This document shows, one piece after another, positions 32,355-36,811 of a stretch of DNA of 64,000 bases. The stretch's first letter is position 1. Every line of letters starts with the position of its first letter. The stretch is from Arthrobacter sp. B1805 (GTDB lineage Bacteria; Actinomycetota; Actinomycetes; Actinomycetales; Micrococcaceae), in assembly GCF_002929745.1 (NCBI RefSeq), contig NZ_PJIQ01000004.1, forward strand, positions 124,001 to 188,000, given 5' to 3'. The notes under the pieces were generated by a model that did not search any database, was not told where the DNA came from, and was given only the letters and a program-made list of their open reading frames with translations. Both the position numbers and the translations under genes were made by a program.

Positions 32355-32816
32355 TCAGTCACCGGTCACGGGCTCCAGGACGAGCGAACCCCTGTCATTC
32401 GAGAGGGTGAGTGTCGTGCCGTCCAGGGTGTAGCTGATCGGAAGTTCGGCAAAATTGTGGATCCACGCGTCGTACTCGTGCTGCGGAGAGTCGCAGGCGA
32501 CAGCTGCTATCTGCATGGTTGAGCGGTCGATCGTCATCTGCTCGTCCGTGACCTCAACTCCGGCCTCGAATCCCGCGCAGGGGGTCCCGACGCGGACGAC
32601 GCGGCGGTTGTCACGGGTGCCCACCCACCAGGTGACGCGGTCAGTCGTCAGCCACGCGAGTTGGCCGGCAGTGCCTGAGCCCGACACTGCCACGAACTGG
32701 ATCCCGTTCAAGGGAGTTGCCTCAGGTGTTGCGCATCCGCTCAGCAGAGCGGCGGACAGCAGCGCTGACATCACCCTGAACGACCGTCGAGCAGCACCTG
32801 CGAGCACGTCGCGCAT
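32355..32816 (-). CDS. Small META-like lipoprotein
   Basis: The 153-residue protein has a lipoprotein signal (VMSALLSAALLSGC, lipobox LSGC). A domain of about 110 residues follows, with the end TLDGTTLTLSNDRGSLVLEP, which resembles the META/HslJ fold. Two further cysteines (in GTPCAGFEAG and VACDSPQ) may be paired. The start at 32816 lies 4 bp after the stop of the upstream gene; the internal ATG at 32771 is an alternative that still leaves a full signal. It is co-transcribed with the secreted protein upstream and belongs to the left arm of the divergent surface-protein locus. Confidence 0.65.
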   Translation of the reverse strand: MRDVLAGAARRSFRVMSALLSAALLSGCATPEATPLNGIQFVAVSGSGTAGQLAWLTTDRVTWWVGTRDNRRVVRVGTPCAGFEAGVEVTDEQMTIDRSTMQIAAVACDSPQHEYDAWIHNFAELPISYTLDGTTLTLSNDRGSLVLEPVTGD

Positions 32817-32820
32817 CTCC

Positions 32821-33399
32821 TCAGATAACGTTCCGACAGTTGCCGCCGAGGCCGGCAACCAGACCCGGGTTGGTCACCGTGGAGACGGGTGTGGAGGTCC
32901 ATCCGTGCCTGCTCATGACAATCGACAGCTCTAGCTCGGTTCCCAAGCCGAGAAGTCCGCCCAGGAGATTCGTTGGAACCGTCGTGACGTACTGTCCCGG
33001 CGTAGCGGCAGGACGGGTGTTCTGCGCGAGGTTGTAGCCGGTGAGGGGCGCCAACGCAGACCCAAGGCCCGAGGTCGATGCCCACAACTGGCTTTCTGAG
33101 AGCTGGTATCCCGACGGCAGCGCCCAGTACATCTCGACCCGGGAACCAATGCCGAGAACGGCAGGAAAGTATCGGCACTGGGCAGTAAGTCGCGCCGGGG
33201 AGATGGCGATTGCTGTGAATGATCCGGCAGTGACCTGGTTCTGATGCCACGCAGCATCGGTCATCCCGGCGCGCAGGCCTGTACCGGCGGTTGGCAGGAC
33301 CAGGAGCCCAACCAGCACCGCCGCCCACACGCCTGAACGGAGCCGGAAATTCTGCGCCCCCTGACCGATACCAGGCAACTCAGGATCGTGCTCTCTCAT
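32821..33399 (-). CDS. Secreted protein with SipW-type alternate signal signature
   Basis: The 192-residue protein has a cytoplasmic head of about 22 residues, a hydrophobic stretch (GVWAAVLVGLLVLPTAGTGL) and then DAAWHQNQVTAGSF. That last block matches the A-[AS]-W-x-x-x-x-x-[TAS]-GSF block directly after the signal in the two TasA-like proteins encoded divergently at 33587 and 34183. The mature part is rich in Gly, Leu, Thr and Pro, with Cys at GQCRYF-like (AQCRYF) and GGNCRN positions. I infer a third substrate of the ER-type signal peptidase at 34869. A ribosome site AAGGAAGG precedes the ATG. Confidence 0.65.
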   Translation of the reverse strand: MREHDPELPGIGQGAQNFRLRSGVWAAVLVGLLVLPTAGTGLRAGMTDAAWHQNQVTAGSFTAIAISPARLTAQCRYFPAVLGIGSRVEMYWALPSGYQLSESQLWASTSGLGSALAPLTGYNLAQNTRPAATPGQYVTTVPTNLLGGLLGLGTELELSIVMSRHGWTSTPVSTVTNPGLVAGLGGNCRNVI

Positions 33400-33529
33400 C
33401 AGCCTTCCTTCCTGAACCGTTTGACGTCACATCACGAGGATTTGGGACTGGTACATGAACGCAGTGTGAACATTCCATTTCGCACAGAAATTGATTTTCA
33501 GCATAAACCGGAGAAATGGGACAACTGGG

Positions 33530-33535
33530 TATAGT
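33530..33535 (+). promoter_or_regulatory. Candidate -10 of the TasA-like operon
   Basis: TATAGT at 33530-33535 lies within GGGTATAGTTT and about 50 bp before the ATG at 33587. The overlapping GGGTAT would also suit an alternative stress-type sigma factor, but no GTTT-type -35 is seen. The 187-bp divergent space also holds the palindrome TGACGTCA at 33422-33429. Confidence 0.4.
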
Positions 33536-33586
33536 TTACGTCGCCGGCGGTCCTAGCCGGAGCGACTCATTACAGGGGGATCCACC

Positions 33587-34180
33587 ATGAACGATGTTCC
33601 GCAGTTGAAGCGCCGCCGCGTCCGCGCCGTCCTGGCAGGAGGCCTGGTCCTCGGGGTCGGTGCTGCTGTGACGCTGGCAGCCTGGAACGACTCGGAATTC
33701 GCGACTGGTAGCTTCGCCGGCGGACAGTTCAACCTCGTCGGCAGCACCGACGGGACGAACTTCACCGACCACGCAACAGCAACCGACGCGGCCGACCTCG
33801 GTTTCGTCGTCGATGCGGACGAACTGACACCGAACGACGTCGTCTACGCGCCATTCGCCGTTGCCTTGGATGGGACCACCTCCTATGGGGCAACCGTCAC
33901 CGTGTCTTCCGAGGCCCTGGCCGGAAGCCTCAAGGACCTCACCTACGAGCTGCTTCAGACGACCGGCTTCGGCTGCACGGCGACCACGACGGGAACCGCC
34001 CTGGTCCCGGCGGGCACCGCTCTGGGTACTGTGCCCGCAGGCGTCACCTTCAGCCTCGAGGAAGCGACCGGGACCGCGCTTGCGCCGGCCAACCTCTGCT
34101 TCAAGGTCACCGCGGGTGACATCGCCCAGGGCATCAGCGGCAGCGCTACCTGGGAATTCGCAGCAGAGTCCCTCTCCTAG
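33587..34180 (+). CDS. TasA-like protein with SipW-dependent signal peptide (first copy)
   Basis: The 197-residue secreted protein starts with a basic head (LKRRRVRA), a hydrophobic helix (VLAGGLVLGVGAAVTL) and the alternate-signal block AAWNDSEFATGSF. This block is the signature of proteins cleaved by SipW-type peptidases, whose Bacillus model TasA forms extracellular fibres. The mature domain is beta-rich, with repeated Thr/Gly/Ala segments and two cysteines (FGCTAT, NLCFKV) at positions shared with the second copy. A ribosome site AGGGGGATCCACC precedes the ATG. It is the first gene of a four-gene coupled operon, with the next start 2 bp after its stop. Confidence 0.85.
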   Translation: MNDVPQLKRRRVRAVLAGGLVLGVGAAVTLAAWNDSEFATGSFAGGQFNLVGSTDGTNFTDHATATDAADLGFVVDADELTPNDVVYAPFAVALDGTTSYGATVTVSSEALAGSLKDLTYELLQTTGFGCTATTTGTALVPAGTALGTVPAGVTFSLEEATGTALAPANLCFKVTAGDIAQGISGSATWEFAAESLS

Positions 34181-34182
34181 CC

Positions 34183-34872
34183 GTGGGCGCGCACAGCGTC
34201 CGACGGCCCGCACGAGCAACACGCGCAGCTCGACCGAAGTCCCTGGCCCGAATCCGCGCGGTACTGGCCGGGGCGCTGGTGCTCGGAGTCGGCGGATCAT
34301 TGACCCTCGCCTCCTGGACGGACACCGAGTACGCCTCCGGCTCCTTCGCAGCGAGTTCCTTCTCGATCGAATCGACCACCTCGAGCCCGTACTCGGCCGA
34401 TGGCCCCTGGACCATCAACGAAACAGCTCCCGGTGCGACGCTTTCCTTCAACGCCACAGGAATGTACCCCGGCAGTACTGCCTATGCGCCGATCGCCCTG
34501 CGCACCCGGACTGGTTCGCTGGCGGGCACGGCGTCCCTGGGACCTGCGGCAGTCACCAATCCCCCAGGGACTGCCGCACCTCTGCTCGGCGATGCCCTGG
34601 TGTACCGCGTCGTGCGCTCGGAAACCTGCTCTGCTGCCGTATTCGCATCCGGTGCCGTGTTCGTGGTCGGCTCTGCGACTGCGGGCCGACCCTTGACTAC
34701 CGGCCAGAATGCCGGTGTGGTGAACAGCCTGGCTCCAGCTACACCGACAGCCCCCGGTGCCAGCACCAGGTTCTGCTTCGAGGTCTCGCTTCCCCCTGGA
34801 GCAGCCAACGCACTGCAGGGGAAGTCAGCGTCGGCGATCTGGCAGTTCTCCGCGGTTTCGACAGCACCGTGA
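34183..34872 (+). CDS. TasA-like protein with SipW-dependent signal peptide (second copy)
   Basis: The 229-residue paralogue of the preceding protein shares the signal region (RIRAVLAGALVLGVGGSLTL, then ASWTDTEYASGSF) and the paired cysteines (SETCSAAVF, TRFCFEV). The basic head is longer (25 residues). It starts with GTG 2 bp after the stop of the first copy and overlaps the signal-peptidase gene by 4 bp (GTGA), so the set is translationally coupled. In Bacillus such pairs are major and minor fibre components; here that division of labour is only an inference. Confidence 0.85.
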   Translation: MGAHSVRRPARATRAARPKSLARIRAVLAGALVLGVGGSLTLASWTDTEYASGSFAASSFSIESTTSSPYSADGPWTINETAPGATLSFNATGMYPGSTAYAPIALRTRTGSLAGTASLGPAAVTNPPGTAAPLLGDALVYRVVRSETCSAAVFASGAVFVVGSATAGRPLTTGQNAGVVNSLAPATPTAPGASTRFCFEVSLPPGAANALQGKSASAIWQFSAVSTAP

Positions 34873-35483
34873 GCGGGACGCCTAACCCTGCCGTGATTGC
34901 TCCCCTCGGTTCCGCCGATGCATCAGCTCCCCTGAGGAAGCGACACTCCCCCGCCGCCGTCATCCGCGAGTTGCTGATGAATCTTGCCGCTATCGGTGGC
35001 GCAGTGTGCATCCTGCTTGTGGTGGCAGCGCTTGTCTTCGACATCACGCTGATGATGTTCAGGACCGGCTCGATGAGCCCGACCATTCCGGCAGGATCAG
35101 TCGCCGTCGTCCGTGAGATGCCAGCGGCCGGCATCTCCATCGGCGACATCATCACCGTCGACCGACCGGGAGCGCTGCCGATCACGCATCGGGTCACCAG
35201 CGTGACCGATACCGGCGGACCCACGCGGATCATCACCATGAAGGGTGACGCGAACGACGTCGAGGACCCGGCGCCGTACAGGGTCGATACCGTGCGCGAA
35301 GTCCTGTTCTCGGTTCCCGGTCTGGCTCCGGTCATCATCGCGATGTCGAACCCTCCGGTGCTCGGCGGCATCACGCTCGCTGTCGCTGCGCTCGTGACCT
35401 GGAGCAGCTGGCCGACGTCGGACAAGAACGGCAGGCACGGACGCCGCAGTGCCCGCGGCGAACACAACGGGCGCAGCGCGTGA
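34869..35483 (+). CDS. ER-type signal peptidase I (SipW-like)
   Basis: The 204-residue membrane peptidase should remove signal peptides from the TasA-like proteins. One helix (AIGGAVCILLVVAALVFDI) is followed by TGSMSPTIPAGS, with catalytic Ser68. In place of the Lys of ordinary bacterial enzymes it has ITHRVTSV with His107, the mark of the ER/archaeal/SipW type. MKGDANDVED supplies the conserved Asp region. A second helix lies near the C-terminus (GGITLAVAALVTWSSW) and a basic tail follows. The start is the GTG overlapping the previous stop. The much longer open frame upstream is antisense to nothing but overlaps the two substrate genes and is rejected. Confidence 0.9.
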   Translation: MSGTPNPAVIAPLGSADASAPLRKRHSPAAVIRELLMNLAAIGGAVCILLVVAALVFDITLMMFRTGSMSPTIPAGSVAVVREMPAAGISIGDIITVDRPGALPITHRVTSVTDTGGPTRIITMKGDANDVEDPAPYRVDTVREVLFSVPGLAPVIIAMSNPPVLGGITLAVAALVTWSSWPTSDKNGRHGRRSARGEHNGRSA

Positions 35484-36199
35484 GGCGTTTCGCCCTCGGA
35501 CAAGGACTGTCGCTCGCGGCTTGCGCACTTGCCTTCTCCGCTGCGCCTGCGGCTGCTGTGCCAGCGGAGATACCAGCCACCACCACCGGACCAAACCTGC
35601 TCGACCTCGAGTACTCGGCAGACACCGTGCGCCTTACCCCTGGCGAGACATCGTCCTGGGATGTGCTCGTGACCTTCGTTCCGCATCTCGTCGACGAGCT
35701 CGTACTGGATCTCGATACGCCGCCGAATGCCAGTTCGCTGCTCATGCAGGACCTCGCGGTGCAAGCCAGCGCGTGCTCCGTGGCTTTCAACCCCTCTGGC
35801 TGTCCGGGCACAACCGTCGAGTTGCTGCCAGTGATTCCTTTCACCGACATAGCAGCGTCAGAGGCGACCGTGCTCCGTCCGGTCACCGAGGACCTTCCCG
35901 GTCCCCTGTATGTACGAGTCAACGTCACCCTTGCCGAGGACACTGACGTCTCGGCCGACCACGAGCCTGCCACCATTCATCTCGCGGCCGTTGCCACCGG
36001 AATGGACACGCCACCGGGAACAGCACCTGAGCGGGTGCTCGACGGGGCAGCTGCCGGTCAGGCTCGACCAGGGAACCGTTCCCCTTTGGCCGAGACAGGC
36101 GCAACCATTCTGGGTTACGCGGGGCTGGGCGTGGCCGCAGTCATCATCGGCCTCCTGGTGTCCGGAGTGGCACGGCGGACCAGCGGCGGAGCTGCCTAG
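35480..36199 (+). CDS. Surface protein with LAETG sorting-type tail
   Basis: The 239-residue protein has an ordinary signal peptide (LSLAACALAFSAAPAAA, cleavage after AxA) and a beta-sandwich-like middle with TPGETSSWDVLVTF. It ends in PLAETGATILGYAGLGVAA, then a hydrophobic helix and VARRTSGGAA. LAETG followed by a helix and arginines is the sorting signal used by class E sortases of Actinobacteria. No sortase is in the window. It overlaps the peptidase gene by 4 bp (GTGA) and is the last gene of the operon. I infer that it anchors or caps the TasA-like polymer at the wall. Confidence 0.75.
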   Translation: MRRFALGQGLSLAACALAFSAAPAAAVPAEIPATTTGPNLLDLEYSADTVRLTPGETSSWDVLVTFVPHLVDELVLDLDTPPNASSLLMQDLAVQASACSVAFNPSGCPGTTVELLPVIPFTDIAASEATVLRPVTEDLPGPLYVRVNVTLAEDTDVSADHEPATIHLAAVATGMDTPPGTAPERVLDGAAAGQARPGNRSPLAETGATILGYAGLGVAAVIIGLLVSGVARRTSGGAA

Positions 36200-36295
36200 C
36201 TTGCTCTGCCCCCGAATCTGGATGCGCCCCATTGGTTCGCTCCGGCATCAGTTCCACGGTATGGACGTACCACGGTGACATGGAAGGCTGGTGGG

Positions 36296-36811
36296 ATGAC
36301 CGGCACAGCGTGGCAGCAGAAGATCGATCGCTTCTACGAGCAGGACTTCGACGACGACGATCCGCAGGGCTCCATCGCGAAGATGGGCGAGCTGCTCGCC
36401 GAGCGTCCCGAGGATGATGCAGAGGCCTTGTTCGAGTTGGCCGGTGTGCACGATGCCCTGGGTTTCGAGAACGAAGCGATCCCGCTGTACAGGCGAGCCA
36501 TCGCAGCAGGGCTGAAGGGCACGAGCGCGCTACGGGCGTCCATCCAACTCGCGAGTAGCCTGCGCAACGTAGGCGCGTCCGCCGAGGCTCTGACGATCCT
36601 CGAATCCATGCCGGATGGCGGCATCGACGAAGGGGCGCGCCAGGCCTTCCTCGCCCTGGCGCTGCATGACGAAGGCAGACACGGCGACGCACTGAAGACC
36701 GCGCTCCTCGCCCTCATTCCGACCCTCGATGGCTACAAGCAGTCCCTCACCGCTTACGTGACAGAACTGCCAAGCACCGCCACGAAGCCCCAAAGCGGGG
36801 AGCCCAGGTAA
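36296..36811 (+). CDS. Tetratricopeptide-repeat protein
   Basis: The 171-residue soluble protein contains helical repeat pairs around residues 22-150. Examples are AEALFELAGVHDALGFENEAIPLYRRAIAAG (cut by its central Gly), RASIQLASSLRNVGASAEALTIL and FLALALHDEGRHGDALKTALLAL. All match TPR spacing, with Ala/Gly at positions 8 and 20. Similar small TPR proteins in Actinobacteria are of unknown function. The start at 36296 has GAAGG upstream; a longer in-frame ATG is 21 bp earlier. Confidence 0.75.
   Translation: MTGTAWQQKIDRFYEQDFDDDDPQGSIAKMGELLAERPEDDAEALFELAGVHDALGFENEAIPLYRRAIAAGLKGTSALRASIQLASSLRNVGASAEALTILESMPDGGIDEGARQAFLALALHDEGRHGDALKTALLALIPTLDGYKQSLTAYVTELPSTATKPQSGEPR

Follow-up and report, generated by a model that had tools for sequence, protein, structure and literature searches.

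What do two TasA-like proteins, an ER-type signal peptidase and a protein with a sorting-type tail do together, and what could hold their product at the cell? The question is raised by a locus in a 64,000-nucleotide stretch of DNA from Arthrobacter sp. B1805, analysed here as a whole (the window); to our knowledge, little is known of the secreted fibres of these bacteria. The original prediction described four genes, A to D, joined by a 2-bp gap and two GTGA overlaps. The ORF coordinates confirm this coupling, with 2 bp between A and B (34181-34182) and GTGA overlaps between B and C (34869-34872) and between C and D (35480-35483). The four genes are as described, but a divergent gene, E, makes the unit one of five genes. 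Its features are the following:

32821..33399, minus strand: gene E, 192 aa, divergent secreted accessory protein with an alternate-signal-like block
33217..33255, minus strand: block AAWHQNQVTAGSF of E; across 15 E proteins A49 never varies and W51 hardly does
33400..33586, no strand: divergent E-A intergenic region, 187 bp, presumed promoter region by position only
33587..34180, plus strand: gene A, 197 aa, TasA-like secreted subunit with SipW-type signal and no sorting signal
33677..33715, plus strand: block AAWNDSEFATGSF of A, putative SipW cleavage region and donor-strand candidate
34183..34872, plus strand: gene B, GTG start, 229 aa, second TasA-like subunit with SipW-type signal, paralogue of A
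34309..34347, plus strand: block ASWTDTEYASGSF of B
34869..35483, plus strand: gene C, GTG start, 204 aa, SipW/ER-type signal peptidase, Ser68-His107-Asp127
35070..35072, plus strand: Ser68 codon of C (GSM motif), putative nucleophile
35480..36199, plus strand: gene D, GTG start, 239 aa, TasA/camelysin-like domain with LAETG and what by eye seems a Sec signal; candidate base subunit linked to the wall
36086..36100, plus strand: LAETG sorting motif (D residues 203-207), in which all 24 D proteins compared keep T206 and G207

A scan of positions 32700-36500 gave no sigma-70-like promoter match, and nothing exceeded chance in the promoter and terminator scan of the locus. In Pfam, all five proteins stayed below every cut-off.

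Two TasA-like proteins and their signal peptidase

As predicted, an alternate-signal block is present in both paralogues. SipW-type signals are already known to NCBI curators as family TIGR04088, and since A (29.8 bits, E-value 4.5e-7) and B (25.4 bits, E-value 1.2e-5) both pass its cut-off of 19, their blocks are more than chance resemblances. W33 of the A-type block is invariant across 73 aligned rows. Using phmmer, query A recovers the B homologues of relatives and query B the A homologues. No sorting signal is found at the C-terminus of either protein. The predicted structure of A has a beta-sandwich core, with residues 23-44 below a pLDDT of 50 in the monomer model, as would fit an N-terminal strand that inserts into the next subunit. 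Its best structural matches are donor-strand filament subunits, the TasA fibre chain included. The model thus supports a donor-strand-pilin-like, TasA-like predicted fold for A, in agreement with the TasA-like nature first proposed.

Protein C passes the cut-off of TIGR02228 (61.5 bits against 51.85), and its closest PDB relatives by sequence are SEC11C (E-value 2.8e-4) and SEC11A (E-value 3.2e-3). Aligned with these two proteins, it presents a Ser-His and not a Ser-Lys pair, as had been claimed, plus a downstream Asp; all 70 sequences aligned, the one from the window among them, have Ser68, His107, Arg108 and Asp127. The Bacillus SipW equivalog NF046067 requires more than 190 bits and C reaches 40.6; judged by these scores, C is a SipW-like enzyme and not the Bacillus SipW equivalog.

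The same genome encodes a second SipW-like peptidase (L061:8111-9181; C38:41260; TIGR02228 64.7 bits). Its C-terminal extension of about 150 aa, which may be HPt-like, matched no Pfam family; the gene adjoins a response-regulator-like frame, and no A/B homologue was found among the surrounding frames read. About 25 kb away lies P0143 (C38:16299-16900), a camelysin-family protein (Peptidase_M73 30.9 bits) whose SipW-type signal is borderline (TIGR04088 22 and 17.2 bits in two runs, cut-off 19).

Conservation of the gene set and the divergent gene E

The neighbourhood of C was surveyed in 69 loci (11 + 5 + 29 + 24), which are best matches to C only, many of them from few genera; the 29 and the 24 were drawn from the best 30 loci of the family and of the order search, respectively. 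Left out of the 69 were L013-L017 (at most 36% identity) and paralogues of about 30% identity (L032-L048 and L050-L054); L115-L118 stand outside the classification. The survey carries out the check suggested with the original prediction, a search in relatives for the peptidase beside block proteins. Two A/B-type frames lie upstream of C on the same strand in 53 loci (one of which, L090, is a single broken gene counted twice), one frame in 13 (several truncated by the locus end) and none in 3. Loci L097, L102, L103 and L106 end before a first A/B gene could appear, and in L011 and L012 the neighbours differ or are rearranged. The full set of two A/B genes with C, D and E is seen in 38 of the 69.

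At genus level, C finds some match in 22 of 38 genomes but a close one (at least 63% identity) in only four: the window's own, G007, G019 and G032. An A/B profile run on 15 genus genomes detects A and B in exactly these four; among the remaining 11, a signal-block match is seen in one (G013). In the wider samples, which overlap, C is matched at an E-value of at most 1e-20 in 46 of 197 family and 65 of 396 order genomes, and at 1e-15 or below in 7 of 396 phylum genomes. On these counts the system has a patchy distribution; within the samples taken, it occurs most often in the family and order to which the window belongs.

Besides block AAWHQNQVTAGSF, protein E contains a hydrophobic stretch. 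It does not reach TIGR04088 and matches no NCBIfam family at an E-value of 1, no Pfam family, no PDB sequence and neither the A/B nor the D profile; four of its homologues gave no NCBIfam family at an E-value of 0.1 and no Pfam family above cut-off. Counting as a match a score of at least 50 bits that also exceeds the A/B score, we find E no farther than 2.5 kb from C in 57 of the 69 loci, and for two of the 12 misses, L029 and L030, E turns up once the stretch is widened (L056 and L057). In most relatives the homologue is placed after C or after D. It lies directly upstream of C in L093, L097, L102, L103 and L106, and in two genus relatives (L056 and L057) it diverges from A. In L065 (1504-2655) and L031 (1426-2547), C runs on in frame into an E-like secreted protein and not into D, the likeness in L031 being judged by eye.

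The sorting-signal protein D and its fusion to C

The sorting-type tail attributed to D is indeed there: its end consists of LAETG, a hydrophobic stretch and RR. Read by eye, D has the pattern of a sortase substrate (secretion signal, L-x-x-T-G, hydrophobic stretch, basic tail) and is devoid of a SipW-type donor block. None of the NCBIfam sorting-signal families passed, the nearest being NF058582 (13.1 of 27 bits), and D has no Pfam or NCBIfam family above cut-off. The sorting motifs of relatives also include LPXTG and LGXTG. Loci L086-L090 have D homologues with LGxTG and not LPxTG or LAxTG, and one upstream A/B gene (broken in L090).

We compared D with the other proteins by sequence profile after removing the signals, using an A/B profile built from the 73 of 100 A/B rows where the pattern detected the block, and clean D sets chosen by position and sorting signal (31 fused, 14 separate). 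By these profiles, the sorting-signal protein D is itself related to the TasA-like proteins A/B and to a camelysin-family protein, with scores of 38.6 and 46.3, each above all of its own controls. An earlier D profile was discarded as proof of homology, several rounds having made it drift into A/B. A search with the single D sequence found 2 proteins and an alignment-based search 20, mostly fused proteins; six of the 20 are Brevibacterium proteins of 436-473 aa named signal peptidase I by NCBI.

Six sortases were found in the genome, one of class E (NF033747, 234.2 bits, cut-off 160) and five of class F. LAXTG is the target of class E sortases (PMC5148588, in part; papers so marked are cited from part of their text), and the match between the class E sortase of this genome and the sorting signal of D is supported. 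The five class F sortases (loci L022-L026), a seemingly large number, have lipoprotein-like N-termini by eye. No class C sortase is among the six and A and B have no sorting signals, which distinguishes the locus from a sortase-assembled pilus.

Relative to C, D is fused in 33 of the 69 loci, separate in 20 and not seen nearby in 16; L007, L073 and L086-L090 entered these D counts after their sequences were read. The fusions are single open frames running from the peptidase through D to the sorting signal (in L073 the contig ends just past the motif, and in L007 an assembly gap follows it). We rejected an internal restart in place of fusion: a linker start with a ribosome-site match is absent in 31 of the 33 fused frames, and the linker has no in-frame ATG, GTG or TTG at all in 19. 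Because AxA occurs within 45 residues of the internal hydrophobic segment in 29 of 33, albeit as a loose pattern in alanine-rich sequence, the fusions suggest that an ordinary signal peptidase may separate D from C.

On a tree of C built from 70 rows by a quick method, with 26 of its 67 inner branches left open, it takes 10 changes to explain the fused label, and 13 of the 33 fusions fall in one clade of 14. Since the starred branches force at least 4 changes, fusion or fission happened repeatedly. The tree label "none" is arguable for L031, L080 and L093: a D match lies about 1 kb downstream of C in G194, D is on another contig in G495, and G030 has sorting-signal proteins nearby.

A D profile matches 19 of 21 genomes at an E-value of 0.001, but strongly (at most 1e-17) in only 8. 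The other 13, of which G970 and G972 have no match at all, have no full-length D: their top match (E-value 2.4e-7) is partial and mostly sorting signal, and the widest, in G032, covers profile positions 12-176 of 225 (E-value 3.9e-4) with the sorting part absent. G007 and G032, two of the three relatives closest to the window, belong to these 13, and 11 of the 13 have two A/B genes beside C. The expectation that the genes stay linked as a unit in relatives is supported; it is weakened for D, which is not obligatory. A-B-C plus E looks like the core, and D, missing at full length from 13 of 21 genomes, like an accessory in many, though not all, lineages.

A proposed wall-tied fibre, its rivals and known systems

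Taken together, we read the locus as encoding an actinobacterial SipW-TasA-type fibre tied to the wall via D, a proposal whose chances we consider evenly balanced. We infer cleavage, polymerisation, contact of D with A/B, wall linkage and the role of E as follows. A and B would be exported through Sec, and C would cut their signals just before the A-W block. The N-terminal strand set free in this way would close the open beta-sandwich of the following subunit, in the manner of TasA fibres, and since neither A nor B has a sorting signal, polymerisation would proceed without a sortase. D would supply the third TasA-like domain; its Sec signal looks ordinary and it has no donor block. The class E sortase would cut D at LAETG and link it to peptidoglycan. 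Once there, D could accept the still free donor strand of the subunit that begins the fibre and so hold the fibre at the wall. E, with its SipW-type block, may be an accessory, perhaps a starter or tip. A bolder formulation, which we put forward tentatively and lean somewhat against, is that of a donor-strand fibre held covalently on peptidoglycan by a dedicated TasA-like base subunit lacking a donor strand, and that in many lineages the fibre's own signal peptidase would carry this subunit as its C-terminal half, coupling maturation, assembly start and wall anchoring in one polypeptide.

D could instead be a wall-linked assembly factor (a starter or chaperone, like TapA or CapP) and not a tether. 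The C-D fusions, seen in 33 of 69 loci, would then place D where A and B emerge, and there are precedents in TapA, which acts by strand donation, and in CapP, which has a wall-binding domain (PMC13082335, in part). A strand-donating starter is expected to carry a SipW-type donor block, however, which by eye E has and D lacks, and we judge this alternative rather unlikely. That A and B, once secreted, stay unpolymerised, D being a separate small surface protein that shares only the operon and an ancient fold with them, is in our view unlikely. Fibres are predicted here from genes and a structural model, and the genomes that keep two A/B genes beside C with no full-length D fit such independence; yet the structural matches of A are rich in filament subunits, the N-terminal block is conserved, and the D-C fusion was gained or lost repeatedly.

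A distant relation to Peptidase_M73 would be consistent with A and B being camelysin-type metalloproteases, as A scores 12.4 bits against PF12389 (TasA/camelysin, Peptidase_M73), below the gathering score of 22.5, and B and D have no match at an E-value of 1; the zinc motif scanned, HExxH, occurs in 0 of 110 A/B frames, and we rejected this very improbable reading. It is barely credible that A and B are precursors of ribosomally synthesised peptide natural products: JGI names A homologues (P0005, P0009, P0020 and others) "predicted ribosomally synthesized peptide with SipW-like signal peptide", but A and B are about 200 aa with a predicted beta-sandwich core, and the name, explained by the SipW-type signal, is probably a misannotation.

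For the wall-tied fibre, we found no description of an actinobacterial SipW-TasA system, of a D protein or of the fusion in the titles and abstract starts of the open-licence papers listed, and we know of no wall-sorting subunit in the archaeal bundling pilus or in cannulae. How TasA-like fibres attach to the cell is unsettled even in Bacillus, where TapA is thought to be involved (PMC9674648, in part), and CapP is proposed as the fibre holder of Bacillus cereus (PMC13082335, in part). In the present locus, nature combines a candidate covalent tether with a genetic link, the C-D fusion, so that the question of attachment becomes directly testable. If the proposal is true, two principles of surface display, donor-strand assembly and sortase anchoring, would be united.

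The closest comparison is with tapA-sipW-tasA of Bacillus subtilis, whose TasA polymerises via donor-strand exchange (PMC9674648, in part). Both loci have a dedicated SipW-type peptidase beside TasA-like secreted subunits, and the TasA fibre chain is among the structural matches of the model of A. The present locus differs in having a pair of TasA-like subunits, E, and a D that combines a TasA-like domain with a sorting signal and is frequently joined to the peptidase; none of its genes was recognised as a counterpart of TapA. The Bacillus cereus TasA-CalY-CapP system likewise combines two camelysin-type subunits with a third protein able to sit at the wall, and it is stated to be sortase-independent (PMC13082335, in part); the difference is that CapP is held at the wall by its own C-terminal domain whereas D carries a sortase signal. 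In the BsaA-SipW locus of Clostridium perfringens, SipW is also found beside polymer-forming secreted proteins with a sortase gene near; there, according to the portion cited, the sortase is dispensable and BsaA has no predicted sorting motif (PMC7395162, in part), while here D carries one and no class C sortase is among the six. Finally, D resembles class E sortase substrates such as the Streptomyces chaplins in pairing an LAXTG signal with a class E sortase (PMC5148588, in part), and differs from the chaplins in being a TasA-like domain tied to a SipW operon.
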